Shown: positions 16,411 to 57,783 of the stretch, piece after piece
Position numbering within the stretch: the first letter of the stretch is position 1
Layout: each line of letters starts with the position of its first letter
Assembly (NCBI GenBank): GCA_003352285.1
Contig: QQVN01000003.1
Span: 248,001 to 312,000 of the forward strand
Direction: 5' to 3'
DNA length: 64,000 bases
Source: Thermoproteota archaeon
Lineage (GTDB): Archaea; Thermoproteota; Nitrososphaeria; Nitrososphaerales; Nitrosopumilaceae
The notes under the pieces: model-generated
Seen by the model: only the letters and a program-made list of their open reading frames with translations
Database searches by the model: none
What the model was told of the DNA's origin: nothing
Program-made: the position numbers and the translations under genes

Positions 16411-16488
16411 TTTCTGATCTCTGAGAATTTTTAGAGCTGTTCGTTCTGCACAAACATCATGTTAAACTTTTAGGGGTTACTAGAAAAT

Positions 16489-17043: not shown

Positions 17044-17076
17044 TAGATGTAATTTGGAATAATTTGATTTAAGTAA

Positions 17077-18225: not shown

Positions 18226-18338
18226 CCTGTTATTTTGATGAGATTTTGAATAGAATTTAAACTGTTAATTTATCGATATGATGCAAAAGGTTGCAATTTT
18301 CAAACAATTTATGCGTGATTTTATCTGATCTGAGTAAT

Positions 18339-19739: not shown

Positions 19740-19753
19740 TGTGGGAATTTGTA

Positions 19754-20191
19754 CTACTTTGATTTAGTCATATTAGTCTTGTTAAACTCTGCTAACATCT
19801 TGGCATAGTTTTCCATCATCATTTTCATGAAGCTATCCCAAGTTCGTATTGTGTCTAATCTAACCTGGAGATGGTTCTTGAATAAGTTACCATACACATC
19901 GATCTGAGCTGTCATCAAGTTTGTGAAAGTTTTGTTTGCCTCACTAAACATCTTTAACACATTTTTATCTAAATTTAGATTATCAAAGAACTCTTTTTCA
20001 GAGATATAGCATGTCCCAAAAACATTATCAAGTGAATGAAGATATTCTCTGTAATAATCTGAATACATCTGAATGTATAATGGAACTTGAGACTCTGCCT
20101 TCTGAATAATCTCTGAAGTGCTACTTTTCATTACATCACAGATTGAGATTTTATCCTCTTTTGGTTTTGATGTTGGTTTGTCTGTTACCAA
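19754..20191 (-). CDS. Helical protein upstream of aldehyde dehydrogenase (phasin/PhaE-like?)
   Basis: A 145-residue protein, almost entirely alpha-helical after a charged 20-residue N-terminus. It has repeated aromatic-rich helices (YIQMYSDYYREYLHSLDNVF; ANKTFTNLMTAQIDVYGNLFKN). Such amphipathic bundles occur in phasins and PhaE-type polyhydroxyalkanoate synthase subunits, and the 14 bp spacing to a semialdehyde dehydrogenase would suit hydroxyacyl metabolism. The assignment rests on composition and context only. No signal peptide, membrane helix or catalytic motif is present. Confidence 0.6.
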   Translation of the reverse strand: MVTDKPTSKPKEDKISICDVMKSSTSEIIQKAESQVPLYIQMYSDYYREYLHSLDNVFGTCYISEKEFFDNLNLDKNVLKMFSEANKTFTNLMTAQIDVYGNLFKNHLQVRLDTIRTWDSFMKMMMENYAKMLAEFNKTNMTKSK

Positions 20192-20313
20192 GATATCTAA
20201 TACCTCAAGATAATATTTAAGGTGGTGTCCAAACTTGCAAGACGAAATTGGAACAAATCTGTTTTACTCATCCGATTCATTGATAAGATAAAGAATACTA
20301 TACAAAATGGGGA

Positions 20314-20898
20314 ATGGGCATGAATAATGATTCCAACATTGAAGATATTGATGAAGAGTTTAGGCTATTAGCTGAAAAACGAAAAAAACTTGCAGAATTA
20401 ACAAGGGGATTATCCAGCTCTGAAATTCCTGCAGCAGAATCTAATCCAAATCCAGACTCTATACAAGAACCTCTTTCCGAACCTGAACCACTAGAGGAGC
20501 CAGTTGAGGAAATTACTTCTAGCGTTGAAGAAAAAGAGACCTTTGAAAAAATTGAGAATGAAGAGGTTGCCAGAAAACCCACCAAAGAAGCTCCATCTGA
20601 GGATGATTCTGAAAAATATGATGACGGTAAACTTGCATTATCAAAAGATGAAATTCTAGAGTTTTGTGACCGAATAATCACAAAATGGCAAAATGATCCA
20701 ACAAAGGATGCAAGACATATTTTTGCAATGAATGCTGTAAAGACCAGCGTCATCTGGACTGAGGAGGAAACCCTCAAAGAGATATGGAAGGAGATATTCA
20801 CATGGGCCTTTGATATTTTATACAAAAATGCTATCGCTCAAGCAAAGGGTGAAAACATGAAGTGGTCTCAAATTTTAGATCAGATTGGAAAGAGCTAA
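20314..20898 (+). CDS. Acidic two-part protein of unknown function
   Basis: 194 residues. A short N-terminal helix (EEFRLLAEKRKKLAELTRGL) is followed by a long Glu/Pro/Ser-rich disordered region (about 40-105) and an ordered C-terminal domain (about 108-194; DEILEFCDRIITKWQNDPTKDARHIF...) rich in Trp. The arrangement suggests an interaction module tethered by a flexible acidic linker. A second ATG lies two codons downstream. No family is recognised. Confidence 0.6.
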   Translation: MGMNNDSNIEDIDEEFRLLAEKRKKLAELTRGLSSSEIPAAESNPNPDSIQEPLSEPEPLEEPVEEITSSVEEKETFEKIENEEVARKPTKEAPSEDDSEKYDDGKLALSKDEILEFCDRIITKWQNDPTKDARHIFAMNAVKTSVIWTEEETLKEIWKEIFTWAFDILYKNAIAQAKGENMKWSQILDQIGKS

Positions 20899-20903
20899 AA
20901 TAT

Positions 20904-21014
20904 CTAACTTGTAACTGAACCTGCAAGCATCTTTTCTACTTCTTCTTTGTGCTCTTTGCAGTATAGTCCTGACTCCTTGCATTTTGGGCAATTAAGATAC
21001 TTTGTAAAGTCCAT
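20904..21014 (-). CDS. Zinc-binding microprotein
   Basis: A 36-residue ORF with CPKC near residue 9 and YCKEH near residue 18, a compact C-x2-C...C-x2-H finger, followed by a helical tail. An in-frame TTG three codons upstream is an alternative start, and the open frame extends further without a start codon. It converges on the preceding gene with a five-base gap. The zinc motif is the only support. Confidence 0.45.
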   Translation of the reverse strand: MDFTKYLNCPKCKESGLYCKEHKEEVEKMLAGSVTS

Positions 21015-21140
21015 ATCGCCCAATTTTTGATGATAGGATATAGATCTTTCTAATGATTCATCAGTATGTGAAACTTTTTAAAAATTGTCTACTTTGAGAA
21101 TTAAGAAACTCATTAAATAAAAGAAGAAAACGGTTACTGT

Positions 21141-21422
21141 ATGGATGCACCTGTCGATGACACTTATCACTTGATCATCCGAACAAAAAATTCCGATGAT
21201 CTTCCTGATGTTGAAAATTATATTCGTGATCTAGATAGAAAAGGATTCTTTAGAGATTTGATTAAACAGGGGAAACTAACAGTTGAGGAAGTACAGAAAT
21301 TACCTTTTGCAAAAATGTGTGAAATTTTCTTTAGACGAGAGCATCAAACTCTAAAGAGTGGGGACATTAGAATCTTCAAAAATACCGGTGACTATTCAAT
21401 ATACTTTGATTCTGGTGAGTAG
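21141..21422 (+). CDS. Small protein of unknown function
   Basis: A 93-residue soluble protein, beginning with a strand-like DTYHLIIRTKNSDDLPDVENYIRDLDRKGFF, a central helix (LTVEEVQKLPFAKMCEIFFRRE) and a short beta C-terminus (GDIRIFKNTGDYSIYFDSG). It has one cysteine and no membrane segment. It faces the DUF6659-like gene convergently 18 bp away. I do not recognise it. Confidence 0.55.
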   Translation: MDAPVDDTYHLIIRTKNSDDLPDVENYIRDLDRKGFFRDLIKQGKLTVEEVQKLPFAKMCEIFFRREHQTLKSGDIRIFKNTGDYSIYFDSGE

Positions 21423-21440
21423 TCAAAAAATAAAAACAGA

Positions 21441-21839
21441 TTACCCGACTGTGTAATCTGCATAGTTGACTTCATTGAGAATTCTATCAATGATCTGTTT
21501 TTGACCTCCTTTGTTGTCAATTGTGACTAGCAGCAAGTTTCCACTTGAGAGTGGAATTGTTACTCTTCGAAGCTTTTCATAAACTGCTAATGTGTACAAT
21601 CCTTTTCCAATCTTGTCATAGTGACGCATTCTTGATTTCCATGCCTTTGCTGCATGCAGTAGTGTTTCTTGGGTTTCTTCTGGTGACAAATAAAGTTCAG
21701 AGTTGCCTTTTGATTTTGACGTCAATACCTTTCCTTCCATGTCGCACACTGCCGCATACCTGATATTCTCGTCTAATGCCAAAACTCTTCCTAATTTTGT
21801 TTCATAATCAAGTTTCTGGGACATTAATTTAGGTATCAT
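21441..21839 (-). CDS. DUF6659-like (roadblock/profilin-like) protein, paralogue 1
   Basis: 132 residues. The core IRYAAVCDMEGKVLTSKSKGNSE is followed by a helix (SPEETQETLLHAAKAWKSRM) and strands VTIPLSSGNLLLVTIDNKG. The same pattern (I/VRFAA...GxI/V...G) recurs in the genes at 31267 and 42780, so the three are distant paralogues of a thaumarchaeal family I believe corresponds to DUF6659. The alternation of strand, helix and strand resembles roadblock/profilin-like sensory folds. Function is unknown. An alternative start is Met6. Confidence 0.65.
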   Translation of the reverse strand: MIPKLMSQKLDYETKLGRVLALDENIRYAAVCDMEGKVLTSKSKGNSELYLSPEETQETLLHAAKAWKSRMRHYDKIGKGLYTLAVYEKLRRVTIPLSSGNLLLVTIDNKGGQKQIIDRILNEVNYADYTVG

Positions 21840-21926
21840 TTACGTTAAAGATAAAATGCAACTCAAAGATAATTAAAATTCGTTTATTATTTTCTCAAAT
21901 TTCTCTCAAGTTTTTACTCTGAAACT

Positions 21927-22151
21927 CTATGGTAATTTTCCGCCTAGTTTGTATGATAATTCCTCTTTTTCTTCTTCTATCAATTTGAGCATCATGTCTT
22001 CTGATTCTTGATACTTTTTGATATTCTCTTCGGCAATCTTTTGAACTCCTGACTCTTCTTCGGAAAATGGGAGTGCCATCAATGATGCCACAGCTACAAT
22101 AACTGCTACTCCTAGTATTACTCCAATCATGGTCTTTTTTGATGTCTCCAT
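21927..22151 (-). CDS. Small single-pass membrane protein
   Basis: About 74 residues with an N-terminal membrane helix (about 7-28; MIGVILGVAVIVAVASLMAL) and a charged helical C-terminal region rich in Glu/Lys that should lie outside the membrane. The ATG at 22151 is preceded by GGAG at good spacing, so it is preferred over the TTG at 22154. Function is unknown. Confidence 0.6.
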   Translation of the reverse strand: METSKKTMIGVILGVAVIVAVASLMALPFSEEESGVQKIAEENIKKYQESEDMMLKLIEEEKEELSYKLGGKLP

Positions 22152-22313
22152 CAAGTCTCCTATTGGTAAATTTTGAGATTAATCCTATGTTGATCATTTC
22201 GCACAAATCTGCTACTGCTTGTAGGGCTTGAATTGATAATTTTCCTATGAGACATGGCAAAATCGACATTTTTTAGCACATAAAATAAAATACTCTGTTA
22301 AAGAATTATCATT

Positions 22314-23285
22314 ATGAAGAGTCTTGTTCTAGTTATTGCACTTTCAATAATTTTTAGTGCCGTCCCACTATCCTATTCTCAATCAATTGCATACTTTCCA
22401 CCGCCAATGAAACAAATTCAAGATGGAGTGTTACCATCAAGCATTACTTGCACTGAGGGATTAGAATTAATCTTCAAACTATCTAATGGTAGCCCTGCAT
22501 GTGTAAAACCTTCTAGTGTAGTAATATTGTTAGAGCGTGGTTGGGGTGCTCATTCATTACCTGATGTAGTCCCAGATGCAATTCAAAATTCTGATGAGAC
22601 AAAATACGGAGAATACAAAGTTACAACCAGTATGGTAAACTATGATGAATACTCTGGATTCCTTGCAAAACCAACTTCATCTGAATCATTTCCTGGAGTA
22701 ATTCTAATTCATGAATGGTGGGGCCTAAATGAAAACATCAAAGATACTGCAGAAAAACTTGCATCATATGGATATGTGGTTTTAGCAGTTGACCTCTTTG
22801 ATGGAAGTGTAGCTACCAATGCTCAAACTGCAATGGCTCAGGTAAGTGCGTTTGACCAAGAAAAGGCAATCATGAACATGAATTCTGCAGTAGAGTATCT
22901 TAAGACATCAAATGATGCTCAAATGATTGGTTCTATTGGTTGGTGCTTTGGTGGTGCACAGTCACTAAACCTTGCATTGGAGAATCCAGAAGTTGATGCC
23001 ACTGTAATCTATTATGGTAGACTAGTTACTGATTCTGATTCTTTGTCTGTGTTATCTGCACCAGTGCTTGGAATCTTTGGAGAATTAGACCAAGGAATTC
23101 CACCAAGTGTGGTAAATGAGTTTGAATCTGCACTTGATTCACTGGAAGTGCCAAATGACATCTACATTTATCCAAACGTGGATCATGCATTTGCTAATCC
23201 TACAGGTGAGCGATATGCTCCTGAAGAAGCAGACGATGCATGGGATAAGACTTTGGAATTTTTAGAGTCAAATCTCAAATTGTAA
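22314..23285 (+). CDS. Secreted dienelactone-hydrolase-family enzyme with thaumarchaeal N-terminal module
   Basis: 323 residues. A signal peptide (1 to about 22, ending SYS) is followed by a small module (about 32-80) containing CTEGLELIFK...GSPACVKP...LERGWG, which I recall at the ends of many thaumarchaeal secreted proteins. An alpha/beta-hydrolase domain follows: nucleophile cysteine in GSIGWCFGGAQ, acid in GELDQGIPPS and histidine in NVDHAFANPTG. The C/D/H triad is that of dienelactone hydrolases. The substrate is unknown. It presumably acts outside the cytoplasmic membrane. Confidence 0.85.
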   Translation: MKSLVLVIALSIIFSAVPLSYSQSIAYFPPPMKQIQDGVLPSSITCTEGLELIFKLSNGSPACVKPSSVVILLERGWGAHSLPDVVPDAIQNSDETKYGEYKVTTSMVNYDEYSGFLAKPTSSESFPGVILIHEWWGLNENIKDTAEKLASYGYVVLAVDLFDGSVATNAQTAMAQVSAFDQEKAIMNMNSAVEYLKTSNDAQMIGSIGWCFGGAQSLNLALENPEVDATVIYYGRLVTDSDSLSVLSAPVLGIFGELDQGIPPSVVNEFESALDSLEVPNDIYIYPNVDHAFANPTGERYAPEEADDAWDKTLEFLESNLKL

Positions 23286-23345
23286 TTTTTTAATAAAAAA
23301 AGTGTGGAGGAAAAGGACAACTCCACACGGGATTTTTCTCTCGAA

Positions 23346-23549
23346 TCACCTTGTGCTCAGACTAGTAACATGTCCCTGTGTAATGTCTTTTGAAAACTGC
23401 TCAAATCCTAGAGCACAGTCTGCGTGAATCCTCTCTAGTGTTGCATAGTTGCAGTTTCCACAAAGCTGTTGTATTGGCTGTCTGCATTCTGAGCACCAAG
23501 ATTCAACTTGTAACTCATTTCCACAGTTCCGACATAGCTCGTCTGGCAT
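23346..23549 (-). CDS. Zinc-ribbon protein
   Basis: A 67-residue protein with three or more metal-binding pairs: CRNCG, CSECR and CGNC...C, enough for two zinc sites. The C-terminus is polar and short. It follows a 47-codon ORF and the Hsp20 gene on the same strand, with GGTG upstream of its ATG as a possible ribosome-binding site. The three probably form an operon. No catalytic domain is present; it may be a regulatory or assembly factor. Confidence 0.7.
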   Translation of the reverse strand: MPDELCRNCGNELQVESWCSECRQPIQQLCGNCNYATLERIHADCALGFEQFSKDITQGHVTSLSTR

Positions 23550-23559
23550 TTCTTTTCAC

Positions 23560-23703
23560 CTATGGGAAATTTCTTCTACCGATTCTCCACTTGCTAATTT
23601 TTGTCGGTGTATGCGAAAACTTTTCTAGCGACGTCTTGACCGACTTTATTGATTCCTTGATGTGGGAGATAGGTTGTTCTGTTAGTGATGATAAATCCTT
23701 CAC
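23560..23703 (-). CDS. Basic 47-residue ORF between Hsp20 and zinc-ribbon genes
   Basis: A GTG-initiated ORF preceded by AGGAGGTG about 7 bp upstream, a strong match to a Shine-Dalgarno site. The product is helical and basic, ending in RIGRRNFP, with no cysteines. Its placement in the 168 bp gap between two same-strand genes and its good ribosome-binding site support translation. No homology is recognised. Confidence 0.45.
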   Translation of the reverse strand: MKDLSSLTEQPISHIKESIKSVKTSLEKFSHTPTKISKWRIGRRNFP

Positions 23704-23716
23704 TTGACTTCACCTC

Positions 23717-24211
23717 CTACTCCACTGAGACCATCTTGCCTTTTGGTTTCTCTTCGGCAAGGGTCAGTTCTACTTCAAGAATTCCGTTTTTGTAAACTGC
23801 TTTTGCAGAATTCTCATCCACTTCGTACTTTAGTGGAACTGTAGTGCTGTATCTTCTGTCTCCGTGTTCTGCTGAAATTGAGACCGCATTATCCACTACA
23901 TTGACCTTGATGTCTGACTTTTCAATTCCCGGCATCTCAGTCGTGAGTTTCAGCTTGCGTTCTTTTTCATTTAATATCTCATCAACAAATGGCTCTCTTA
24001 CGCTAGAATCTGCAATTGCAGTTGTTGGTCTAACGTTTCCCCATTCGTTAATTCGGGGTTTGCCATCAGGACCAATGGTCATCTGATAGCCATAGTAATA
24101 TGGACCGAATGTCTGAATACGGTCTGCTGGTCCTTCGAAGACGTCATCGGCGGTAAAAAAGCGATTCGACAATCTTCGAAATGTCTTTTCGAATTGGTCA
24201 TCAAACCACAT
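23717..24211 (-). CDS. Small heat-shock protein Hsp20
   Basis: A 164-residue alpha-crystallin-type chaperone. After a 75-residue N-terminal arm the crystallin domain runs from about 80 to 160: LKLTTEMPGIEKSDIKVNVV, AVSISAEHGDRRYSTTVPL and the characteristic AVYKNGILEVELTLAEEKP. It prevents aggregation of unfolded proteins. Unusually, the N-terminal arm carries a YYGYQMTIGPDGKPRINEWGNV segment, found in a subset of archaeal Hsp20s. It is divergent from the thermosome gene. Confidence 0.92.
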   Translation of the reverse strand: MWFDDQFEKTFRRLSNRFFTADDVFEGPADRIQTFGPYYYGYQMTIGPDGKPRINEWGNVRPTTAIADSSVREPFVDEILNEKERKLKLTTEMPGIEKSDIKVNVVDNAVSISAEHGDRRYSTTVPLKYEVDENSAKAVYKNGILEVELTLAEEKPKGKMVSVE

Positions 24212-24346
24212 ATGTTGTTCACCGGATATGTAATATCTATGACATTATTTAAGAATTTGTGTGTTTCAATTGATTAATTACATAATGTCTCATATATTAC
24301 AAATCTTAAAATATTGGATTACACATAATGCGCACTTGATGGAATA
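24212..24346. promoter_or_regulatory. Shared divergent promoter region of Hsp20 and thermosome genes
   Basis: This 135 bp AT-rich region holds TATA-like elements for both genes: CTTAAATAATG on the minus strand about 30-40 bp before the Hsp20 ATG, and TCTTAAAATATT on the plus strand about 40 bp before the thermosome ATG. A partly symmetric ATTGATTAATTACATAAT lies between them and is a candidate shared regulator site. Confidence 0.5.
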
Positions 24347-25984
24347 ATGACATCACAACCACAAGTTATCCTTCTAAAAGAAGGAACAACTCAAACAAAA
24401 GGTAATGATGCCCAAAAAAATAACATCCAAGCTGCCAAGCTAATTTCTGAAATAGTTAGAACCAGTCTTGGTCCAAGAGGAATGGACAAGATGCTAGTAG
24501 ACTCACTTGGAGATGTTACCATTACAAACGATGGTGCAACAATTCTCAAAGAGATTGATGTACAGCATCCTGCCGCAAAGATAATGGTTGAGACAAGTAA
24601 AGCAACTGACACCGAAGTCGGTGACGGTACAACTTCAACTGTTGTGTTGGCCGGTGCACTATTAGAAAAAGCAGAAGAACTAATAGCAAAAAATGTACAT
24701 CCAACTATTGTAGTTGATGGGTTCAAAAAAGCATCTGAGAAAGCAATTCAGATGTTAAAAGAAATTGGCATAAAGGTAGATCCACAAGATAAGAAATTTT
24801 TGAAAAAAGTAGCAACAACAACTTTGTCATCAAAGCTAGTATCCAATGATGCAGATACACTTGCAGACATTATAGTTGATTCTGTACTTTCCGTAGCTGA
24901 AAAACAAAGTGATGGATACAAAGTAGACATTGACAACATCAAAGTGGAAAAGAAAGGTGGCTCCTCCATCAGAAACACTAAACTTGTTCACGGGATAATT
25001 CTTGACAAAGAAGTAGTTCATGGTGGAATGCCAAAAAGAGTTGAAAATGCAAAGATTGCACTCATTAACTCTCCACTAGAGATAGAAAAAACCGAGTTTG
25101 ATGCAAAGATTAACATCAACTCCCCAGAGCAAATTCAAAACTTTATTGATGAAGAAAATAGAATGCTCAAAAACTTAGTTGACAAGGTTTCTAATTCTGG
25201 GGCAAACATAGTCTTGTGTCAAAAAGGAATTGATGATATGGCACAATACTATCTTGCAAAAGCAGGAATTATGGCCGTTAGAAGAATCAAAGAAAGTGAC
25301 ATGACAAAACTTGCAAAAGCAACCGGTGCAAGAGTTGTTACAAACATCAATGAACTTTCAGAAAAAGATCTTGGCCATGCAAATCTTGTTGATGAAAGAC
25401 AAGTTGAATCAGACAAATGGGTATTCATTGAAGGATGCAAAAATCCAAAAGCTGTGACCATCCTTGCAAGAGGTGGTTCACAAAGAGTAGTCGACGAAGT
25501 TGAGCGTTCAATTCACGATGCTCTAATGTCAGTAAAAGACGTCGTAGAATACCCATATGTTCTAGTTGGAGGTGGTGCCGCAGAAGCACATGTTGCAAAC
25601 AAACTTCGAGAATGGACCAACTCCCTTGATGGACGACCTCAATTGGCAGCACAAAGATTTGCAGAAGGAATCGAGACTATTCCTCTAGTCTTGGCTGAAA
25701 ATGCAGGAATGGACCCACTTGACACTCAGGTTCAACTGAGAGCAAGAAGTTCCAAAGGAAAGGCTTCGTTTGGTATAGATGTAATCAACACCAAAGTTGC
25801 CGATCTTGAATCTGAAAACATCTTTGAGCCCCTAGCCGTAAAAGAACAAGTAATCAATGCGGCTACAGAGGCAGCCTGCATGATTCTGCGAATAGATGAT
25901 GTTATTGCAGCATCAAAATCCCATAGTTCTCCACCACCGGGAGGACCTCCTGGAATGGGTGGAATGCCAGGAATGGATATGTAA
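24347..25984 (+). CDS. Thermosome subunit (group II chaperonin)
   Basis: A 545-residue CCT/thermosome subunit, an ATP-dependent folding machine of the archaeal cytosol. Motifs: LGPRGMDKMLVDSLGDVTITNDGATIL, the ATPase GDGTTSTVVLAGALL, the apical-domain region VHGGMPKRVENAKIALI and the C-terminal equatorial AGMDPLDTQVQLRA with flexible tail PPGGPPGMGGMPGMDM pointing into the chamber. It is full length. Divergent transcription from an Hsp20 gene suggests joint stress control. Confidence 0.97.
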   Translation: MTSQPQVILLKEGTTQTKGNDAQKNNIQAAKLISEIVRTSLGPRGMDKMLVDSLGDVTITNDGATILKEIDVQHPAAKIMVETSKATDTEVGDGTTSTVVLAGALLEKAEELIAKNVHPTIVVDGFKKASEKAIQMLKEIGIKVDPQDKKFLKKVATTTLSSKLVSNDADTLADIIVDSVLSVAEKQSDGYKVDIDNIKVEKKGGSSIRNTKLVHGIILDKEVVHGGMPKRVENAKIALINSPLEIEKTEFDAKININSPEQIQNFIDEENRMLKNLVDKVSNSGANIVLCQKGIDDMAQYYLAKAGIMAVRRIKESDMTKLAKATGARVVTNINELSEKDLGHANLVDERQVESDKWVFIEGCKNPKAVTILARGGSQRVVDEVERSIHDALMSVKDVVEYPYVLVGGGAAEAHVANKLREWTNSLDGRPQLAAQRFAEGIETIPLVLAENAGMDPLDTQVQLRARSSKGKASFGIDVINTKVADLESENIFEPLAVKEQVINAATEAACMILRIDDVIAASKSHSSPPPGGPPGMGGMPGMDM

Positions 25985-26020
25985 TTTTCATATCCTTTTT
26001 TTCTTATTTTTTCTCAAATA

Positions 26021-26052
26021 GCATACCACAAGTTGCCCGTCATATACTAATA
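26021..26052 (+). promoter_or_regulatory. Conserved promoter element, copy 1
   Basis: GCATACCACAAGTTG starts here, and CTAATA begins exactly 26 bp downstream of its first base (26047). The ATG at 26074 is 27 bp beyond the CTAATA, as expected for a TATA element and a leaderless transcript. Seven copies of this arrangement occur in the window. Confidence 0.7.
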
Positions 26053-26073
26053 ATTCAAACGTGTATAGATATC

Positions 26074-26229
26074 ATGCCACTAACAGTGCTAAAACATAAC
26101 GACTCCATAGGACAAAACCTAGTTGAAAGTGAGGCCAAAAACCCTCTTTCAACTATTGGTTCAAAGACTAATTGGACATATGTTGCAGGATTATCATGGA
26201 TATTATTAGATGACGAGTTTGAATACTAA
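26074..26229 (+). CDS. 51-residue microprotein with conserved promoter
   Basis: An ORF of 51 codons directly downstream of promoter copy 1. The product has a polar N-terminal half and a Trp-rich C-terminal part (NWTYVAGLSWILLDDEFEY), possibly a short amphipathic or membrane-associated segment. It ends 50 bp before a large secreted fibronectin-III protein on the same strand, so the two may be cotranscribed. No family is recognised; the promoter position is the main evidence. Confidence 0.6.
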   Translation: MPLTVLKHNDSIGQNLVESEAKNPLSTIGSKTNWTYVAGLSWILLDDEFEY

Positions 26230-26279
26230 TGATATCAATCATTAGAAAATACTAAATAGAAAAACAGGTTTCATAAACA

Positions 26280-27962
26280 ATGCAAAAAACTCTCTTTACA
26301 CTTATCATATTATTTTCACTGTCCTTTATGATACTAAATAATCCAGTATACGCTCAATCATCAGCACCGGATCCAATTACAAATCTTGCAGCAGTTCCAG
26401 GTAATGGCTCAGTGCATCTTGTATGGTCGGCACCAGATAACAATGGCTCTCCAATTACAAGCTACAAAGTAATTCAATGGGTTACGGGTTCTGATACCTT
26501 TACGACATTTCCAAATTTGAGTAATACTGCATCAGTTACTGTAACTGGTTTAAAAAATAATGTATCATACAGCTTTAAAGTTTACGCAATCAACTCTGCA
26601 GGTACAAGTCTTGATTCAAATATTGTATCTGTCACCCCTACAGCTTCTGCACCTGCAACTGATGTTCCCGATGCAGTAACAAATCTTCAGGCAACAAGGG
26701 GAAATGGTAAAGTCAATTTGTCATGGACCACTCCTAACAGTAATGGCTCGCCAATCATAGGATACACTGTAACATATTGGCAAGTTGGTACCGATGCATT
26801 CAAAACTAAAAAAATTGATGGTGTAGCAACATCTACACAAATCACTGGTTTATCAAATGGTGTTCCATATGCTTTTAGAATAAATGCATTAAACAATATT
26901 GGAACTGGTCCTGATTCAAACGTTGACTCTGCAACCCCGTCTGAATCTGTAACTGCTTCTGCACCAAACCAAGTAAGGGGTCTTGTTGCTGTGCCAAGTA
27001 ATGGTCAAGTATTATTGTCATGGATAGAGCCCTCTGATAACGGCTCACCAATTACAAGCTATAAGGTAATAGCCAACGAAAAAGGCTCTAACACATTTAC
27101 AACTTATCCAAACCTAGGTGATTCTACCAAAGTCACCATTACAGGATTAAGAAACGATGTAACCTATGAATTCAAAGTGGTTGCAATAAATGCAATAGGC
27201 CAAAGTAAAGACTCCAATAAGGTATCTGCATCCCCAAATACCCGTGTTCCTATTGCAATAACAAATCTCAAGGCTACTCCTGGGGATGGAATGGTAACTC
27301 TAAACTGGTCAGTCTCATCTTCTGTTTTGGATTCTATTAGCAGCTATCGTGTACGTGAATACAGGCCAGGTGTAAGCACTTTTGTCACACATGAGATATT
27401 GGGAAAAGCAACTACTGCAACAATTGATGGTCTTACAAATGGAATCCCATATGGATTTAGAATTGTAGCTGTCAACTCTGAAGGAATTGGACCTGATTCT
27501 AGTACTGTTTATGCAACACCAATGCCAAAACCTGATGTATCAAAGACACCAAGTCAGGTTTTAAATCTCAAGGCAACCCCTGGAGATAAACAAGTTACTT
27601 TAACTTGGAACAAGCCTTTTGATAATGGTTCGCCAATAACTGGTTACAACATTATTCAATTCAAGACTGGATCTAACACATTTACAACAATTCCAAAGTC
27701 TGATGTCTCGACAAGTGCCGTTGTAACTGGACTAGTAAACAGTGTAAGTTACAACTTTAAAGTTTCAGCAATTAATGCAAACGGTGAAGGACTAGAATCA
27801 ACTGCAGTTTCTGTCGTACCATCTGCTCCTCAATCTAATCTGCAATTGCCTTCTTGGATAAAAAATAATGCTTTACTGTGGGCTGAAGGAAAGATTTCTG
27901 ACAAGGAATACGTTCAATCAATTGAATACTTGATTAACAATAAAATCATCAAGATAAAATAA
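26280..27962 (+). CDS. Secreted protein with five fibronectin type III domains and WIKN-type C-terminal module
   Basis: 560 residues. A signal peptide (1 to about 25, ending VYA) is followed by five FN3 repeats of about 95 residues, each opening P-x-x-V/I-x-x-L-x-A-x-x-G (near 33, 132, 230, 325 and 425). A closing module (about 525-560; WIKNNALLWAEGKISDKEYV) is shared with PstS in this window. It is probably a cell-surface adhesion or matrix protein. The FN3 repeats are similar enough to suggest internal duplication. Confidence 0.9.
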   Translation: MQKTLFTLIILFSLSFMILNNPVYAQSSAPDPITNLAAVPGNGSVHLVWSAPDNNGSPITSYKVIQWVTGSDTFTTFPNLSNTASVTVTGLKNNVSYSFKVYAINSAGTSLDSNIVSVTPTASAPATDVPDAVTNLQATRGNGKVNLSWTTPNSNGSPIIGYTVTYWQVGTDAFKTKKIDGVATSTQITGLSNGVPYAFRINALNNIGTGPDSNVDSATPSESVTASAPNQVRGLVAVPSNGQVLLSWIEPSDNGSPITSYKVIANEKGSNTFTTYPNLGDSTKVTITGLRNDVTYEFKVVAINAIGQSKDSNKVSASPNTRVPIAITNLKATPGDGMVTLNWSVSSSVLDSISSYRVREYRPGVSTFVTHEILGKATTATIDGLTNGIPYGFRIVAVNSEGIGPDSSTVYATPMPKPDVSKTPSQVLNLKATPGDKQVTLTWNKPFDNGSPITGYNIIQFKTGSNTFTTIPKSDVSTSAVVTGLVNSVSYNFKVSAINANGEGLESTAVSVVPSAPQSNLQLPSWIKNNALLWAEGKISDKEYVQSIEYLINNKIIKIK

Positions 27963-27968
27963 TCTACA

Positions 27969-28919
27969 TTAAGCAAAGAACAACGCAAAGAAAATAATTA
28001 TAATTATTATTGGCATCATCTTTCTCATCTTTGAATTAATTCTCTCTGCTTCTTTTTCCTTTTTGTGATCAATGTAACGCATCTGAATAACCATTGATAG
28101 TAAATTATTCAAAAAGAGCGAATATGCAATTATCATGATTTTATCCATCAGTGTGAGATATCCTATGGGTGGAAGTTGACCTGCAGCATTTAGATGTGCA
28201 GCAACTGCAGCTAAGAGAGTTGATGCCCCAAGTCCAATTCTTGCAGTAAAGTTTGTCGGACTCATCCAAAATGCTAGCATGGCAATTGTTGTAATTATTA
28301 GAACCGGAAATATGGTCTTCAAAAATGATGATAGGGGAAATCTCTCAATGTCTAATGCAAAGACATATCTTGAAAAAGTTGTGTTATCAGAATATTCATG
28401 CTCAGTAACATGGGCTTGACTTCCTTTTAGATTCCAGCCTGGAATGTTGACTAGCCCATCTATTCCAGTCTCAGCATCATCTACGACAAATTGTAATTTG
28501 TCGATTTCTTTGATTCCCTCAATTTCAATAGTTAATTGCAACTGCTCAAATGGATAATTTTTAAAATTCATATTTTTTTGAAAATTTCCTTTTATTCTTA
28601 CTTCATAATAATTTGGTTCAATCTTAATTGGGTCTACAGTTGCTTTACCATTCATGAATTCGATCTTTGGTGGTGACTCTACAAAGTTTTCATCATCTGA
28701 ACTAATCCATAGATAAAAATCCAAATCATATGTGCCCGTTTGCAGATCAATTTTTCCAACATTTAGTATGTATGTTCCAACTTTGTAGATTTTTGGATCT
28801 TCTGAATTATCATCTTCTGATTGGGCAAAAGAGTCATTTACAAATAGTGACAAAGAGATCACACAAAAAATCAAACCTACGAAAAAGTAATCATTTTTCT
28901 TTAATGTTGGTCTTGTCAA
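27969..28919 (-). CDS. Pentameric ligand-gated ion channel homologue (Cys-loop superfamily, prokaryotic)
   Basis: 316 residues. A signal peptide (to about 33) precedes an extracellular beta domain (about 40-205) with DLDFYLWISSDDENF and the diagnostic NYPFEQLQLTIEIEG, the prokaryotic Cys-loop-equivalent (F-P-F-D-x-Q-x-L). Four membrane helices follow: M1 FLKTIFPVLIITTIAMLAFW, M2 near RIGLGASTLLAAVAAHLNA, M3 LMDKIMIIAYSLFLNNLLSM and a C-terminal hydrophobic M4. Topology and order match ELIC/GLIC-type channels. The ligand and ion selectivity are unknown. Confidence 0.85.
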   Translation of the reverse strand: MTRPTLKKNDYFFVGLIFCVISLSLFVNDSFAQSEDDNSEDPKIYKVGTYILNVGKIDLQTGTYDLDFYLWISSDDENFVESPPKIEFMNGKATVDPIKIEPNYYEVRIKGNFQKNMNFKNYPFEQLQLTIEIEGIKEIDKLQFVVDDAETGIDGLVNIPGWNLKGSQAHVTEHEYSDNTTFSRYVFALDIERFPLSSFLKTIFPVLIITTIAMLAFWMSPTNFTARIGLGASTLLAAVAAHLNAAGQLPPIGYLTLMDKIMIIAYSLFLNNLLSMVIQMRYIDHKKEKEAERINSKMRKMMPIIIIIIFFALFFA

Positions 28920-28993
28920 TGCTCAGAGACGTGACAACTATCTGAGAATATTATTTTATCTTTTTTAACGAAAAGAAACCTTGAAAAAAAATA

Positions 28994-29025
28994 GCACGCC
29001 ACAAACTGCCCGTCATAGACTAATA
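28994..29025 (+). promoter_or_regulatory. Conserved promoter element, copy 2
   Basis: GCACGCCACAAACTGCCCG begins here, and CTAATA begins 26 bp later at 29020. The ATG at 29048 is 28 bp past that. It shares CTGCCCGTCATA (or TTGCCCGTCATA) with copy 1 in addition to the core. Confidence 0.7.
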
Positions 29026-29047
29026 TTCATCTGACAGTGGCTTTCTA

Positions 29048-29137
29048 ATGACTATAACAAGAATTCAAAACGAATCAATCAAAACATTCAATGTTGTTGT
29101 TGATCGTCTCACACGTGCATGGAACGAAATATTCTGA
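29048..29137 (+). CDS. 29-residue microprotein with conserved promoter
   Basis: A 29-codon ORF placed at the leaderless position behind promoter copy 2. The product is a single amphipathic helix ending RLTRAWNEIF. Its stop is six bases before the ATG of a secreted repeat protein, so it may act as an upstream coupled ORF as well as, or instead of, a functional peptide. Confidence 0.5.
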   Translation: MTITRIQNESIKTFNVVVDRLTRAWNEIF

Positions 29138-29143
29138 TAAAAG

Positions 29144-30178
29144 ATGACTAGAACCATTCTATTAGCAATTTTTGCTACAGTAATTTTACTCACCGGCACA
29201 GTGGCTACTCCATTAGGAATGTATCAAACAGCTGATGCTGTAAAATCCAAAGGAAATGAATCCACCGTAATAAACTCAAAAAAAGTTTGCGGTGACCGAT
29301 TATGCTCTGATCCTAAAGCACCAGTTGTAAAAAAATCTGAAAAGAAAGAAGAAACCAAAACAGTGCAAAAAGCAAAAGAAGAGTCTAAAGCTACTACAGT
29401 ACCTCCTACCAAAGATAACAAGGCAGAAGTAATGAAAGAAGCAAAAATGTCAGAAAAGACAGTATCTCTTACAAAAACTGTTACTGGTACTATGAAATCT
29501 TCCAAAGATCCTGGACTTGGACATGAAAATCATCAGTTAGCAATAATTCTCCCTCCAAGCGATAAAGTATATCGTGGGCATCTAACATACACTGCATCTG
29601 AACCCGTTCAACTAGTTGCCCTACATGGGCCATTAAAGACTGGAAAGGATAGAGGTCAGCCAATTTGGTCTACTGATGGAACTACAAAATATGGAATGAC
29701 GTTTGTTGATGACCAACGAGCATCTGGTGTATGGCAATTTGCTGGAAATGCACTTGCAGTACATACCATGAAAAAGGAGCCCTTCACTGTAACCTATTCT
29801 GTTACATATACAGAAAATGTTGTTGACAATGTAAAGGCCTTTAGAGGAACCATTTCTTCTGAAAAAGATCCTGGACTTGGACATGAAAATCATCAACTAG
29901 CAATGATACTTCCACCAAGTGATAAGGCGTATCGTGGAACATTAACATATGATGCATCTGAGCCGATTCAATTGATCTCATTGATTGGACCAATTAAGGA
30001 AGGCGAAATTCATCCTCCAACAACTTGGTCTCCAGATGGAAAGACAATTTATGGTATGATCTTTGTTGATCCAAAGAAATCAGCAGGAACTTGGATTTTC
30101 TCAGGTAATGCGTTAGCTGTTCATACAACAAAGACAACACCATTCACTGTAAGTTACTCAGTTGTCTTAACTGAGTGA
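29144..30178 (+). CDS. Secreted protein with two tandem approximately 108-residue domains
   Basis: 344 residues. A signal peptide (to about 32) is followed by KKVCGDRLC, a Lys/Glu-rich linker (about 60-110), and two near-identical domains (about 120-228 and 235-344). Each opens KDPGLGHENHQLA, continues ILPPSDK.YRG.LTY.ASEP and ends GNALAVHT...PFTV.YSV. The His/Asn-rich GHENHQ motif could bind metal, which is inference. The VCGxxxC motif recurs in the secreted protein at 57466, which also follows a microORF and the same promoter element. Confidence 0.8.
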   Translation: MTRTILLAIFATVILLTGTVATPLGMYQTADAVKSKGNESTVINSKKVCGDRLCSDPKAPVVKKSEKKEETKTVQKAKEESKATTVPPTKDNKAEVMKEAKMSEKTVSLTKTVTGTMKSSKDPGLGHENHQLAIILPPSDKVYRGHLTYTASEPVQLVALHGPLKTGKDRGQPIWSTDGTTKYGMTFVDDQRASGVWQFAGNALAVHTMKKEPFTVTYSVTYTENVVDNVKAFRGTISSEKDPGLGHENHQLAMILPPSDKAYRGTLTYDASEPIQLISLIGPIKEGEIHPPTTWSPDGKTIYGMIFVDPKKSAGTWIFSGNALAVHTTKTTPFTVSYSVVLTE

Positions 30179-30204
30179 TTTTTTTATTTTTTAAAATATA
30201 ATTA

Positions 30205-30270
30205 GAGCAATACTGGTTATACCGCTTTGGTTCGAGGGTACCTATACAGCATGTTATACCAGTTATGCTC
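30205..30270. repeat. Imperfect long inverted repeat downstream of a secreted-protein gene
   Basis: Arms 30205-30222 (GAGCAATACTGGTTATAC) and 30253-30270 (GTTATACCAGTTATGCTC) pair at 13 of 18 positions around a 30 bp loop containing GGTACC. It could form an RNA hairpin at the 3' end of the upstream mRNA or be a protein-binding site. Confidence 0.5.
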
Positions 30271-30333
30271 GGATGGTTGTTTTATGTGAAATTTTTATTT
30301 ATTGATAGCGTAACAATTGTGGAGTGCCTAAAG

Positions 30334-30365
30334 GCATGCCACAAGTTGTTATCAAATTCCAAATA
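30334..30365 (+). promoter_or_regulatory. Conserved promoter element, copy 3
   Basis: GCATGCCACAAGTTG begins here and CAAATA begins 26 bp downstream at 30360, 30 bp before the ATG at 30390. It lies inside the longest open frame, so it argues that the real gene starts at 30390 and not at 30324. Confidence 0.65.
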
Positions 30366-30389
30366 ATTCCTGATTATACACTGTCTAAT

Positions 30390-31172
30390 ATGCCTAAAAC
30401 AGAAAAATTCATCGGCAAAAACGCAAACATCGAAAGAATAGCAACACGAATAGAGAATTACCTCACAGAAAACAAGTTTGAAGTGGCATTTTCCCGTGAT
30501 GTCTCCGGCGAAAGCCACACCTACCTCATCCAGGCCAGAAAATCTGGATTAATCCGAACCGTTTCAGGTTCAAGAAGAAGTACAGATATCACCATATCTG
30601 GCCAACCAAATAACTTTGAGATAAAAGTTGGAACAGGGGAGTGGGGTAAAAACTTGGTAACTTCTGCACCATTGTTTGTGATTCCTTTAGTGGGGATTGC
30701 AACTACTGTAACAAAACTATACACTGCAAAGAAGTTTGAAGACAATCTGTGGTCTTTTGTAAAAGATCAAGTAAAATACCTAGAAAATACTCACACAAAG
30801 GATCAAACAAATCTTAAAGAATACCCATGTGAATATGTAGAGGGATATTCTGAATGGAAGTCTCCTATCCGTGATTGCAAGTTGTTTCTTGAATATAACT
30901 CTGGTAACAGTTGTATTATACTCAAGACTTCAATTGAACAAGGACTAAAAATTCCAGCAACAAAAATTGAGAGTGCAAAGATTATCATGAAAAGATCAAA
31001 AGAAAATACTGATGATCGCATGATTCAGATCACTTTTAGAGATGATCATGACAAAAAGCGCAGCCCAATCTTTAACTTTGATGATGATATCATCAGAGGA
31101 GTATTAGCTGGAATTGATGAGCTAGTTAGTGAGACAAAACTTCAACAAATGACACTAGCAATTAAACACTAG
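30390..31172 (+). CDS. Hypothetical protein, 260 residues
   Basis: The open frame begins at 30324, but conserved promoter copy 3 lies within its first codons and positions the start at ATG 30390 (MPKTEKFIGKNANIERIATR). The product has an N-terminal alpha/beta region (IENYLTENKFEVAFSRDVSGESHTYLIQARK), a short hydrophobic segment (SAPLFVIPLVGIATTV, about 95-112) that could insert in a membrane, and a soluble C-terminal half. No catalytic motif is recognised. Poly-T tracts at 31173-31200 probably terminate it. Confidence 0.65.
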   Translation: MPKTEKFIGKNANIERIATRIENYLTENKFEVAFSRDVSGESHTYLIQARKSGLIRTVSGSRRSTDITISGQPNNFEIKVGTGEWGKNLVTSAPLFVIPLVGIATTVTKLYTAKKFEDNLWSFVKDQVKYLENTHTKDQTNLKEYPCEYVEGYSEWKSPIRDCKLFLEYNSGNSCIILKTSIEQGLKIPATKIESAKIIMKRSKENTDDRMIQITFRDDHDKKRSPIFNFDDDIIRGVLAGIDELVSETKLQQMTLAIKH

Positions 31173-31200
31173 TTCTTTTCTTTTTTATTTTTATTTTTTT
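31173..31200 (+). terminator. T-rich terminator
   Basis: Runs of T (TTTTCTTTTTTATTTTTATTTT) directly after the stop, just ahead of the next promoter element. This is the usual form of archaeal intrinsic termination. Confidence 0.5.
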
Positions 31201-31205
31201 TCAAG

Positions 31206-31237
31206 GCATGCCACATTTACTACGACATCATCAAATA
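31206..31237 (+). promoter_or_regulatory. Conserved promoter element, copy 4
   Basis: GCATGCCACATTT begins here, and CAAATA begins 26 bp downstream (31232). The downstream TTG start at 31267 is 35 bp beyond, leaving a short leader. The core is less complete after CCACA than in other copies. Confidence 0.6.
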
Positions 31238-31266
31238 ATATTTTCATTACGTTACCTTGATAACAT

Positions 31267-31632
31267 TTGATAAAGGTACAACAAATCTCAAAATATCAAA
31301 ACGGTTGTGAAAAAATTCTACAAATACCTGGAGTACGTTTTGCAGCCTTGATAAACAACAAAGGAAGAATAATCAGTGGAGGGATAAGCGAGAAAGTGAT
31401 TCCATACGAAAAAGACGAAGAAAAGAGAAATGTTTTGTTTATGGAAATTGCACTTGATCTAACAATGCGAAAAGAATTCACAAATACCTTGGGCAGCATA
31501 CATGCTATAGTATCATATCGTGACAGAGTCAACATTATAACAATCCCTCATGATGAGAACTTCATTCTTTTGTCTGTAGAGCCAGAATTAGATTCTCAAA
31601 AAATTATAGAACTAGTTAGAGAATTAGTATAA
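31267..31632 (+). CDS. DUF6659-like protein, paralogue 2
   Basis: 121 residues starting at TTG. The family core VRFAALINNKGRIISGGISEKV is followed by a helix with EEKRNVLFMEIALDLTMRKEF, a strand pair HAIVSYRDRVNIITIPHDENFILLSVEP and a closing helix. It is most similar in pattern to the gene at 42780 (shared E/D-x-x-R-K...VRTRQ/LTMRKEF block). It is driven by promoter copy 4. Function unknown; a roadblock-like signalling fold is plausible. Confidence 0.7.
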   Translation: MIKVQQISKYQNGCEKILQIPGVRFAALINNKGRIISGGISEKVIPYEKDEEKRNVLFMEIALDLTMRKEFTNTLGSIHAIVSYRDRVNIITIPHDENFILLSVEPELDSQKIIELVRELV

Positions 31633-31697
31633 TTCTGGAATTTTCTTTTTTTCATGCCTAATTTTAGTATTTTTTAGGCATCATTTAGTCAATTAAG

Positions 31698-31729
31698 GCA
31701 TACCACAAGTTGCACGGTATGCACTAATA
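31698..31729 (+). promoter_or_regulatory. Conserved promoter element, copy 5
   Basis: GCATACCACAAGTTGCACGG begins here, CTAATA begins 26 bp downstream (31724), and the ATG at 31751 lies 27 bp further. This is the closest copy to copy 1. Confidence 0.7.
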
Positions 31730-31750: not shown

Positions 31751-31975
31751 ATGAGCCAACTACTCTTTAAATCAAGGCAACCCCAGCATAAAGAAACTCT
31801 GGTTGAAAGCATACCAGTAAAAGAAGGGCAAAAACTTTACAATAAATGCGTACTTTGTTCAGGCCTAAAACATGTCATGTTGACATGTGGTATATGTAAC
31901 AAATCAATAACACTGCAATGTGGACGTTGTGGTAAAGGATCTTGGTCTGAAGAAAACCACAGTAATTGTGTGTAA
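31751..31975 (+). CDS. Zinc-ribbon protein with conserved promoter
   Basis: 74 residues. A polar N-terminal half is followed by CVLC...CGIC...CGRC with a closing H-x-x-x-C (HSNC), enough ligands for two zinc sites. The ATG is exactly at the leaderless position behind promoter copy 5. Likely a small cytoplasmic regulatory or adaptor protein; no DNA-binding domain is visible. Confidence 0.7.
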   Translation: MSQLLFKSRQPQHKETLVESIPVKEGQKLYNKCVLCSGLKHVMLTCGICNKSITLQCGRCGKGSWSEENHSNCV

Positions 31976-32241: not shown

Positions 32242-32273
32242 GCATACCGCAACATCAAAATAATTTTTTAATA
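32242..32273 (+). promoter_or_regulatory. Conserved promoter element, copy 6
   Basis: GCATACCGCAACATC begins here, and TTAATA begins 26 bp downstream (32268). The ATG at 32308 is 40 bp beyond, so a short leader is expected. The core differs at one position (CCGCA for CCACA). Confidence 0.55.
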
Positions 32274-32307: not shown

Positions 32308-32979
32308 ATGTACGACACGACCGTATATCAAAACATCTCTGGTTCATCAGATTCTTTTTTAAAAAAATTTGATGGATATAGAAAACTTACCAAACCAAAT
32401 CATAAAAAATCTATACCTGTTTTGTTTGGTATGATTATGTCCCTGATGGTAGGGGGCATGACCATCCTGCCTGAGAATGCCTACTCCGAAGAGCAAAGTT
32501 CAATTGACCAAATACGACTAGAAGCAGAAGCAGAATTTGCAAATGAAATACAAAAAGCCAAATCAATCCTTAATGAAATTAAAAACAATCCCAACTCTAA
32601 TGAGCAAGACATAGAGCTAGCAATGATTGAATACAAAAAATCCGTAGCAATTGCAAAACAGATTAGAGACGAAAAAATTCAAAATGCTCAATTGACTCTG
32701 GAAAAGATTTCTACCGTCCCTAAAATTAGCCTTGCAGATGCACGAAAACAACTAAAATTAACCGTGGATACTGCCCATGAGCAATTACAAAAAGCAATAG
32801 AATCTGCCAAGTCTGCTTATGATTCTGCAATTAGAGATGCATTGGGAGACAAAGGTCTTGAAAAACAAGCTGAATTAGAATATGAATCAGCACTCAAAAC
32901 TGCCAAAGAGACATACAACAAAATAGTGTATGAGGCAACCAAGCAATATCAGAAAATGAGAGACGTCATCAATGTATGA
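32308..32979 (+). CDS. Exported or anchored coiled-coil protein
   Basis: 223 residues. A 35-residue basic N-terminus precedes a hydrophobic helix (about 37-55; VLFGMIMSLMVGGMTIL) ending at AYSEE, so it could be a signal or an anchor with an unusually long n-region. The rest is coiled coil rich in Ala, Glu and Lys with internally repetitive segments (YKKSVAIAKQIRDEKIQNAQ; YESALKTAKETYNKIVYEA). It is likely extracytoplasmic and filamentous. No catalytic motif. Confidence 0.7.
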   Translation: MYDTTVYQNISGSSDSFLKKFDGYRKLTKPNHKKSIPVLFGMIMSLMVGGMTILPENAYSEEQSSIDQIRLEAEAEFANEIQKAKSILNEIKNNPNSNEQDIELAMIEYKKSVAIAKQIRDEKIQNAQLTLEKISTVPKISLADARKQLKLTVDTAHEQLQKAIESAKSAYDSAIRDALGDKGLEKQAELEYESALKTAKETYNKIVYEATKQYQKMRDVINV

Positions 32980-57270: not shown

Positions 57271-57301
57271 GCATGCCACAATTTCTTAGTTATTCCTAAT
57301 A
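57271..57301 (+). promoter_or_regulatory. Conserved promoter element, copy 7
   Basis: GCATGCCACAATTTC begins here, and CTAATA begins 25 bp downstream at 57296; the ATG at 57324 is 28 bp further. This copy lies 25 kb away from the other six. Confidence 0.65.
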
Positions 57302-57323: not shown

Positions 57324-57458
57324 ATGTATGAAAATAAAATAAAAACAGAATATTCTGTTAGAAAAGCATGGGATAAGCTAGAAGGCATTCCACTAGAAGA
57401 GATTGAACACTTTGATAATTTTATGAAAGATTATCAAAGTACAAGAAAAAACAAGTAG
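57324..57458 (+). CDS. 44-residue microprotein with conserved promoter
   Basis: ORF of 44 codons at the leaderless position of promoter copy 7. The product is charged and helical (VRKAWDKLEGIPLEEIEHFD), with no cysteines. Its stop is seven bases before the start of the secreted protein at 57466, the same layout as at 29048/29144. Confidence 0.5.
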   Translation: MYENKIKTEYSVRKAWDKLEGIPLEEIEHFDNFMKDYQSTRKNK

Positions 57459-57465
57459 CTATACG

Positions 57466-57783
57466 GTGACCATTTTGAAAAAGATTCTCTTGACCTCTAC
57501 GGCAATGATTCTTGCACTGTCCTTGGTTTTTCCCACTTTTAATGCCTGGGCATATCTCATTACTCCAGATGGTTTTCTTGTAATGAAAAAAAGTAAAGGA
57601 GTTACTACCAATGATTTTGGGAAGAAAACTTACCATAAGGTATGCGGCAGTGAGGTCTGTAAGGAAGAAATTGTTAATCAAACTGAAAAGTCATTAAAAA
57701 ATGAACAAATAAAAAATATCAAAAAGATTACAGCAAGTGACAAAGCAGCAGAATTCATGAAGGTGTATTACCGATTAAAGTAA
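57466..57783 (+). CDS. Small secreted protein with VCGxxxC motif
   Basis: 105 residues from GTG. Signal peptide (to about 30; ILLTSTAMILALSLVFPTFNAWA). The mature part contains HKVCGSEVCKEE, the motif also found as KKVCGDRLCSD in the protein at 29144, and a Lys-rich helical C-terminus. The cysteine pair may be a disulfide or metal/haem site. Function unknown. Confidence 0.65.
   Translation: MTILKKILLTSTAMILALSLVFPTFNAWAYLITPDGFLVMKKSKGVTTNDFGKKTYHKVCGSEVCKEEIVNQTEKSLKNEQIKNIKKITASDKAAEFMKVYYRLK

Follow-up and report, generated by a model that had tools for sequence, protein, structure and literature searches.

Why is the gene for a secreted protein in a Nitrosopumilaceae archaeon preceded, at a distance of 6 nt, by an open reading frame (ORF) of 29 codons, and why does the promoter ahead of this pair recur elsewhere in the window, the 64,000-nucleotide stretch of DNA that we analyzed? 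A preliminary description had proposed a recurring cassette consisting of a conserved promoter, a microORF and a gene for a secreted protein with a VCGxxxC motif. Comparison across genomes reveals that the cassette is real and carries a defined operator. We think it probable that the cassettes are units of a regulon that is governed by R288, an undescribed 288-amino-acid (aa) protein, and that its units share the operator, a leaderless microORF and a gene for a surface protein. The focal arrangement, a 29-codon ORF at 29048 followed by a KKVCGDRLC protein at 29144, had been described correctly, and the third, looser example at 26074/26280 is also present, with an operator, a 51-codon ORF and a 50-nt gap (Table 1). 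At 57324/57466, the 44-codon ORF and the HKVCGSEVC protein stand, but the proposed GTG start at 57466, 7 nt past the microORF, is doubtful. A likelier start is the TTG 16 nt past the microORF and behind GGTGA, since the Nitrosopumilus sp. b1 orthologue (L044) has ATG there.

Table 1. Operators, leaderless ORFs and secreted proteins in the window (positions counted from its first nucleotide)
Feature	Position	Strand	Basis or remark
Focal operator GCACGCCACAA	28994..29004	+	sequence matches
Focal TATA-like AATA, 17 bp past operator	29022..29025	+	sequence, spacing
Focal 29-codon leaderless microORF, ATG at +54	29048..29137	+	
Focal secreted 344-aa protein with KKVCGDRLC, 6 nt past microORF	29144..30178	+	
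Operator GCATACCACAA, AATA at 26049-26052	26021..26031	+	
51-codon leaderless microORF, GLSWI-type microprotein, ATG at +53	26074..26229	+	
Secreted fibronectin type III repeat protein, second cistron or neighbor, 50-nt gap	26280..27962	+	Pfam fn3 9.4e-67
Operator GCATGCCACAA, 16 bp ahead of AATA 57298-57301	57271..57281	+	
44-codon leaderless microORF, conserved in Nitrosopumilus sp. b1	57324..57458	+	
Secreted 102-aa protein with HKVCGSEVC, likely TTG start 57475	57475..57783	+	listed ORF: GTG 57466
Operator GCATACCACAA, AATA at 31726	31698..31708	+	
74-aa leaderless small protein: LVES.PVKEG N-module and Cys-pair (zinc-ribbon-like) part	31751..31975	+	
Operator GCATGCCACAA ahead of 260-aa ORF 30390-31172	30334..30344	+	
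Operator GCATGCCACAT ahead of DUF6659 ORF 31267-31632	31206..31216	+	Pfam DUF6659 8.8e-12
Variant operator GCATACCGCAA ahead of ORF 32308-32979	32242..32252	+	

The operator core, GCATGCCACAA, is an 11-mer that lies 17 bp upstream of a TATA-like AATA, ahead of leaderless ORFs. At the three cassettes of the preliminary description it reads GCAYRCCACAA and is followed by 17 bp (16 bp at 57271), AATA and, 25–26 bp further on, ATG. Since archaeal TATA elements lie ~25 bp ahead of the transcript start, this spacing is the geometry of a leaderless archaeal promoter. Bases outside the searched pattern are also conserved, namely A (0.91), A (0.77) and G (0.84) before the 11-mer and A (0.71) after it, and the extended operator, AAGGCATGCCACAAA, spans ~15 bp at about −53 to −43 of the leaderless start. 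As the operator lies directly upstream of a weak TATA element, it occupies the position of an activator site. It precedes four window ORFs beyond the three cassettes (sites at 30334, 31206, 31698 and 32242), among them the DUF6659 ORF, whose product is presumably Roadblock-like.

Is the recurrence more than chance? We rejected the 11-mer alone as evidence, since with two mismatches it was found 27 times in the window versus 19.6 expected. The spaced pattern, however, has 20 sites in the own genome versus none for a reversed control and, with at most one mismatch, matches 20 of the 76 Nitrosopumilaceae genomes versus 0 of 76 for the control; its distribution within genera g4, g12, g15, g18 and g19 is patchy. 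ATG, which is absent from the search pattern, stands at +53/+54 in 49 of 75 unique sites in the fetched loci versus 1.7% per position (binomial p ~3e-53, a value that counts related sites separately), and the remaining 26 sites have no ATG there. A leaderless transcript would begin just where these first ORFs do, and the shared promoter that had been claimed is supported. Over 96 unspaced 11-mers of the fetched loci, a TATA-like offset of 26 or 27 accounts for 78 counts. Our site totals (75, or 76 with site 57271, which was added by hand because of its 16-bp spacing) refer to unique sites in the fetched loci, not to every family-wide match, and as the genomes are related, p values overstate independence. 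Recurrence of the spaced operator is not due to chance.

An exact-match scan of the genome collection returned 75 stretches, most of them in unrelated bacteria, and we examined 14 of these sites together with two from viruses. Five of the eight sites in records of ammonia-oxidizing archaea lead small ORFs, one encoding a Cys-pair protein and the other four encoding products of the microprotein type, and none of the six examined from other organisms leads an ATG ORF at +50 to +59. The two exact viral matches, from IMG/VR, have a GC content of ~0.5 nearby and lead no ATG ORF, and we take them to be chance. Among the papers listed by literature searches, none deals with the operator or R288, the 11-mer string giving only titles on unrelated subjects, and the accessible portion of an mdRNA-Seq paper offers nothing usable (PMC5069720).

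If the operator marks a regulon, which protein reads it? The preliminary description had named no regulator. Clustering of the island proteins yielded a recurring trio: a histidine kinase (16 proteins in 14 genomes), a receiver (14 in 14) and R288 (14 in 14). We compared 30 R288 loci. The receiver gene is no more than 150 bp from R288 at 28 of them, the two genes are arranged tail to tail at 26, and at 24 the flanking DNA contains a kinase gene on the same strand as the receiver; L242, L249, L250, L251, L254, L255 and L257 depart from this layout. The kinase has a Cache-HAMP-HisKA-HATPase architecture, and the copy beside R288 in the own genome matches HATPase_c (1.7e-22), HisKA (8.7e-14) and HAMP (1.5e-11), as a two-component kinase should. 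The receiver is a stand-alone CheY-like protein of 121 aa, REC only (Response_reg, 1.6e-25, in G032). R288, whose own-genome copy (C5:266450-267313) lies outside the window, has no REC match and is therefore not a REC fused to a DNA-binding domain. Eleven R288 homologues share no Pfam or NCBIfam family, a PDB profile search gave chance-level matches with no credible relative, and an AlphaFold2 model built from two sequences was unusable (pLDDT 44.7). Within the sampled order, R288 was found in family f1 only (13 of 121 genomes).

The link between R288 and the operator comes from DNA sites. The R288 start codon lies inside an operator on the other strand (TTGTGGC-ATG-CC). With the starts of L243 and L254 moved to likelier positions, TTGYGGY directly precedes the R288 start exactly in 16 of 28 cases and with at most one mismatch in 20 of 28, versus 11 exact matches among 325 control ORFs, 10 of which are themselves R288. 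At base 8 of the operator, the self-site and the regulon sites carry the same letter in 14 of 15 genomes (10 A/A, 4 G/G, 1 unreadable), and genus g15 contains both kinds; this comparison used hand-copied site strings and left out G070, G040, G064, G014 and G015, which have a different N terminus or a partial or no close R288. R288 (at least 56% identity) and the operator also occur together: 18 genomes have both, 1 has R288 only, 2 have the operator only and 55 have neither (p 2.8e-14, from a hand-counted table in which the 56% line was chosen after seeing the list and G040 was counted from partial pieces). G014 and G015 have the operator without a close R288, and G045 has R288 with a diverged operator. 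Some genomes contain R288 paralogues with site variants of their own, for example GCATACCGCA followed by GGATTGGTA or similar (G000, G045). On these sites, R288 is likely the controller of the operator and would bind it.

A second R288 system was observed at L286 (G000 C2:252252) and L288 (G045 C1:1143575), with the longer variant operator GCATACCGCAA plus GGATTGGTA. It leads ORFs of 144 and 171 aa that begin MSQTVLTS and MNQQTLTS.

It is also conceivable that another factor, such as a TFB paralogue or an unlinked wHTH protein, reads the operator and that R288 is a fellow regulon member sharing the site. The site is placed where a TFB-adjacent factor would act, wHTH-like ORFs are found in the islands (L140:1335+, which is operator-led, L112 and L131), the operators of G014 and G015 lack a close R288 and, in the accessible text of one study, biofilm genes of N. 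maritimus are tied to a TFB switch (PMC12448741). We nonetheless consider this explanation unlikely. The start-codon site is a family trait of R288, which supplied all but one of the exact control matches; site variant and self-site change together, R288 and operator co-occur tightly, paralogues have their own variants, and the wHTH cluster is present in 3 island genomes versus 14 for R288.

An R288 that acts at the operator would resemble Ptr2 and TFB-RF1, archaeal upstream activators that recruit TBP/TFB and are Lrp/AsnC or small HTH proteins, in having a site at a set position immediately ahead of a weak TATA/BRE. Unlike these proteins, it matches no described family. The pairing of a histidine kinase with a stand-alone REC is like that of other archaeal two-component systems. 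According to the accessible part of a survey, stand-alone REC proteins are the commonest thaumarchaeal response regulators (~75%), DNA-binding archaeal response regulators are rare and many outputs lack identified targets (PMC5847659). The R288 loci differ from the surveyed systems in that, at nearly all of them, the gene next to the REC encodes a further conserved protein for which the DNA holds a matching site.

What does the operator lead? A complete ORF with its ATG at +51 to +62 is found at 61 of the 76 sites and none at the other 15. Of these ORFs, 48 are small (20–130 aa) and fall into GLSW-type microproteins, some with an LVE..PVKEG N-module, Cys-pair proteins of ~70 or ~100 aa, and singletons. 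The ~100-aa Cys-pair family comprises 24 proteins from 16 genomes, and the operator leads 13 of the 24. Four of five first ORFs longer than 130 aa look exported, including a 1748-aa S-layer-like ORF in the own genome. The microproteins had been described as unlike each other, which is true only in part, since the product of 26074 belongs to a family ending GLSWI..D. No relative or Pfam family was found for the focal 29-codon ORF, and its product is absent among the listed matches of a profile built from 14 microproteins, which has matches in 27 of the 76 genomes. Among the 24 of 30 microprotein loci that were read, about 15 have the operator (9 flagged by the script and 6 in which the script had chosen an upstream ATG in or near the operator), 7 do not and 2 have no ATG ORF. 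GLSWI microproteins without operator occur, for example, in G058 and G067, where an SD-like sequence lies behind the microprotein ORF, followed in G067 by a gene start. As the microORF is followed by an SD-like sequence there without an operator, the pairing of microprotein and secreted gene seems to be wider than the operator.

Several microORFs are under purifying selection and evolving as proteins. Compared with Nitrosopumilus sp. b1, the 44-aa microORF has dN 0.10 and dS 0.80 and the 74-aa ORF at 31751 has dN 0.078 and dS 0.39. Three G032/G047 pairs of 57, 70 and 55 aa have dN/dS of 0.052/0.25, 0.025/0.20 and 0.043/0.18; constraint is weaker on a 66-aa ORF (0.19/0.35), and in a 60-aa pair dN approximately equals dS (0.073/0.085). 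These values bear on whether the microORFs could be non-functional leaders, in which an AUG is needed at the leaderless start, the ORF delivers ribosomes and the peptide is inert. Such a role would suit the great diversity of the sequences, the 29-codon ORF without relatives, the unconstrained 60-aa pair and those ORFs whose ends are set by an SD sequence (AAG AGG AGG TGT ATT, encoding KRRCI). For the microORFs in general we find it improbable: dN is below dS in six pairs, the GLSW-ending family is recognizable and also occurs behind other promoters, and among the first ORFs are some that encode Cys-pair proteins and some that group with a protein of the Snf7 type. We therefore prefer the reading in which most families of small ORFs encode proteins.

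Two observations concern individual microORFs. A 52-aa microORF differs by 1 nt between L285:2024 (G000 C5) and L147 (G001 C9), and the gene for its secreted partner by 15 nt; this near-identity may reflect recent transfer or strong constraint. The 66-aa operator-led ORFs (L150:4201 of G000 C5, L148, L117 and L131:1318) fall into one cluster with an L131 protein of 210 aa, which has a match to Snf7 (ESCRT-III) at 1.3e-8. The 66-aa ORF itself has no Pfam match, and its Snf7 link passes through this clustering. Possibly, these ORFs are truncated CdvB-like microproteins in the regulon.

Behind 31 of the 48 small first ORFs, a second ORF of at least 80 aa starts within −30 to +100 nt; the other 17 have none. 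By our own hydrophobicity rule for export-like N termini, which is not a dedicated predictor, 26 of the 31 partners look exported and 5 do not, compared with 18 of 69 window genes (Fisher p 6e-8). The VCGxxxC motif was rejected as the defining feature of the cassette. It is present in 2 of the 26 secreted partners, both in the window, and orthologues of the focal partner occur without an operator. Proteins similar to the fibronectin type III protein at 26280 are the secreted partners in L112 and L119.

Are the two ORFs coupled? The preliminary description had suggested coupled leaders or partners, and for a subset of cassettes, in which the ORFs overlap or abut or the first ORF contains or adjoins an SD, this bicistronic organization is found. 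Stop and start overlap or abut in L116, L126 and L128, and an overlap or an SD within the first ORF is seen in L116, L121, L122 (minus strand), L126, L128, L129, L144 and L087. Among the signals are AGGAGGTG within the last codons of the first ORF and, in a subset, ATGA or TAATG stop-start overlaps. In five cassettes the first ORF ends AAG AGG AGG TGT ATT TGA, so that the codons of its KRRCI tail double as the Shine-Dalgarno signal of the second gene. SD-like sequences are present ahead of 14 of the 26 secreted partners, and the selection on microORFs described above also favors a partnership; the 29-codon ORF, by contrast, is not conserved. In 18 of the 31 pairs (19 with the start at 57475), the second ORF begins −23 to +31 nt from the end of the first, which leaves little room for attenuator hairpins of the trp/his leader type. 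Five of the 12 SD-less partners have a TATA-like hexamer at −34 to −20, and those with wide gaps may have their own promoters, which is the second point that had been named against the cassette. At the focal gene, the 6-nt gap contains no SD and no TATA-like hexamer was found; this fits reinitiation without proving it, and coupling there would be of this kind.

The focal secreted protein belongs to a secreted family that is widespread in relatives. In a comparison that covered 36 of the 44 loci L013-L056 (L041, L042, L045, L049, L051, L052, L054 and L055, mostly duplicate genes or fragments, were left out), its orthologues at L014-L022 lack both operator and microORF, and the sequence immediately ahead of their starts is AT-rich and promoter-like, with a TATA that was read by eye. 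Absence of the microORF from orthologous loci, which the preliminary description had named as a point against the cassette, is thus observed for the 29-codon ORF, at L014-L022 and in Nitrosopumilus sp. b1, where the segment is absent, but not for the 44-codon ORF, which is kept in b1.

Some features of the surrounding DNA should be recorded here. Synteny with Nitrosopumilus sp. b1 (L146) extends over 16016-23279, breaks off there and is seen again from 31698 on. The intervening 8.4 kb (23280-31697), which carries small heat-shock-like and thermosome-like ORFs, two of the three cassettes and further operator-led ORFs, is absent at the syntenic place in b1 (G001). The focal secreted protein contains a repeat, encoded at 29481-29638 and 29841-29998 with 72% DNA identity, and this domain is also present in many other proteins of relatives. 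On the minus strand, 27969-28919 encodes an exported protein with hydrophobic stretches that has a homologue in the R288 island of G049 (L124:7691) and that is reminiscent of a pentameric ligand-gated channel.

Could operators, microprotein genes and secreted genes simply be chance neighbors, each with a separate promoter, in gene-dense, AT-rich islands? The TATA-like hexamers at the right distance ahead of some SD-less partners are what one would expect in this case, as are the apparent promoters of the focal gene's orthologues and the missing segment in b1. Overlapping or near-abutting stop-start pairs with an SD inside the first ORF, the excess of export-like partners and the G067 locus, where such a pair has been kept behind a different promoter, all argue to the contrary, and we regard chance neighborhood as very improbable.

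How might an R288-governed regulon work? The kinase would sense an external signal, and the phosphorylated receiver would alter the activity of R288. R288 would read the ~15-bp operator upstream of the weak TATA and recruit the basal machinery to the regulon promoters; because its own start codon falls inside an operator, it may limit its own synthesis. Transcripts would begin at the AUG of the small first ORF, where ribosomes would load, and in many cassettes these would be passed to the secreted cistron through a stop-start overlap or an SD in or just behind the first ORF. In most families the small ORFs would encode genuine proteins, probably cytosolic, whose production keeps pace with that of the surface protein. 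Overall, such a system would remodel the cell surface, including fibronectin-III proteins, other exported proteins and an S-layer-like protein.

A role at the surface is also suggested by G045, which we take to be N. maritimus SCM1. In this genome the variant ACATGCCGCAA precedes an S-layer-like ORF of 1708 aa, which lies beside two R288 loci. The own-genome 1748-aa ORF is called S-layer-like from its length and from a start that resembles that of the G045 ORF, and a Pfam search with its first 90 residues gave no family, nor did one with the G045 protein. Map position and gene-number arithmetic suggest that the 1708-aa ORF is Nmar_1201, if the strain is as we suppose, in which case the alternative S-layer gene of N. 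maritimus would be the gene behind the variant operator. From the accessible text of two papers, Nmar_1201 is 91% identical to Nmar_1547, the main S-layer protein (PMC11153153), and is up in biofilms, whose genes are linked to a TFB switch (PMC12448741). In that text, neither paper names a regulator of the R288 kind. These findings suggest that R288 systems may govern surface-attached growth.

A small ORF directly ahead of a gene for a surface or membrane protein is also known from Halobacterium salinarum, where, as the accessible part of the report has it, the brz gene lies directly upstream of bop in the same orientation and is needed for high levels of the mRNA of this major membrane protein (PMC2253796). 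Brz is a single zinc-finger regulator at one locus, whereas here many unrelated small ORFs, mostly with exported partners, lie under one operator. The 29-, 44- and 51-codon products contain no Cys and so do not have the Brz form (<70 aa with two C(P)xCG motifs); the product of 31751 has CVLC, CGIC and CGRC pairs but is longer than 70 aa.

We also put forward, tentatively and with more doubt than confidence, a broader proposal: that R288 is the founding member of a new archaeal family of proteins that bind operators as outputs of stand-alone receivers, and that it acts as a surface-lifestyle switch in ammonia-oxidizing archaea. An external signal would bring about exchange of the S-layer (including the alternative S-layer of N. 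maritimus) and of exported proteins, each exported protein having a dedicated GLSW-type micro-partner in the cytosol that would affect how the surface protein is made or timed or would provide feedback on it.

Stand-alone receivers are numerous in thaumarchaeal genomes, and many such archaeal outputs have unidentified targets according to the accessible part of the survey cited above (PMC5847659). R288 is a candidate output: it is a conserved neighbor of such a receiver, and the DNA site that matches it is found both at its own start codon and at a set of promoters that can be counted. The cassettes further reveal leaderless promoters that are organized as pairs of microORF and secreted-protein gene across a family, and the system as a whole may connect a signal from outside the cell with the surface of archaea that rank among the most abundant.
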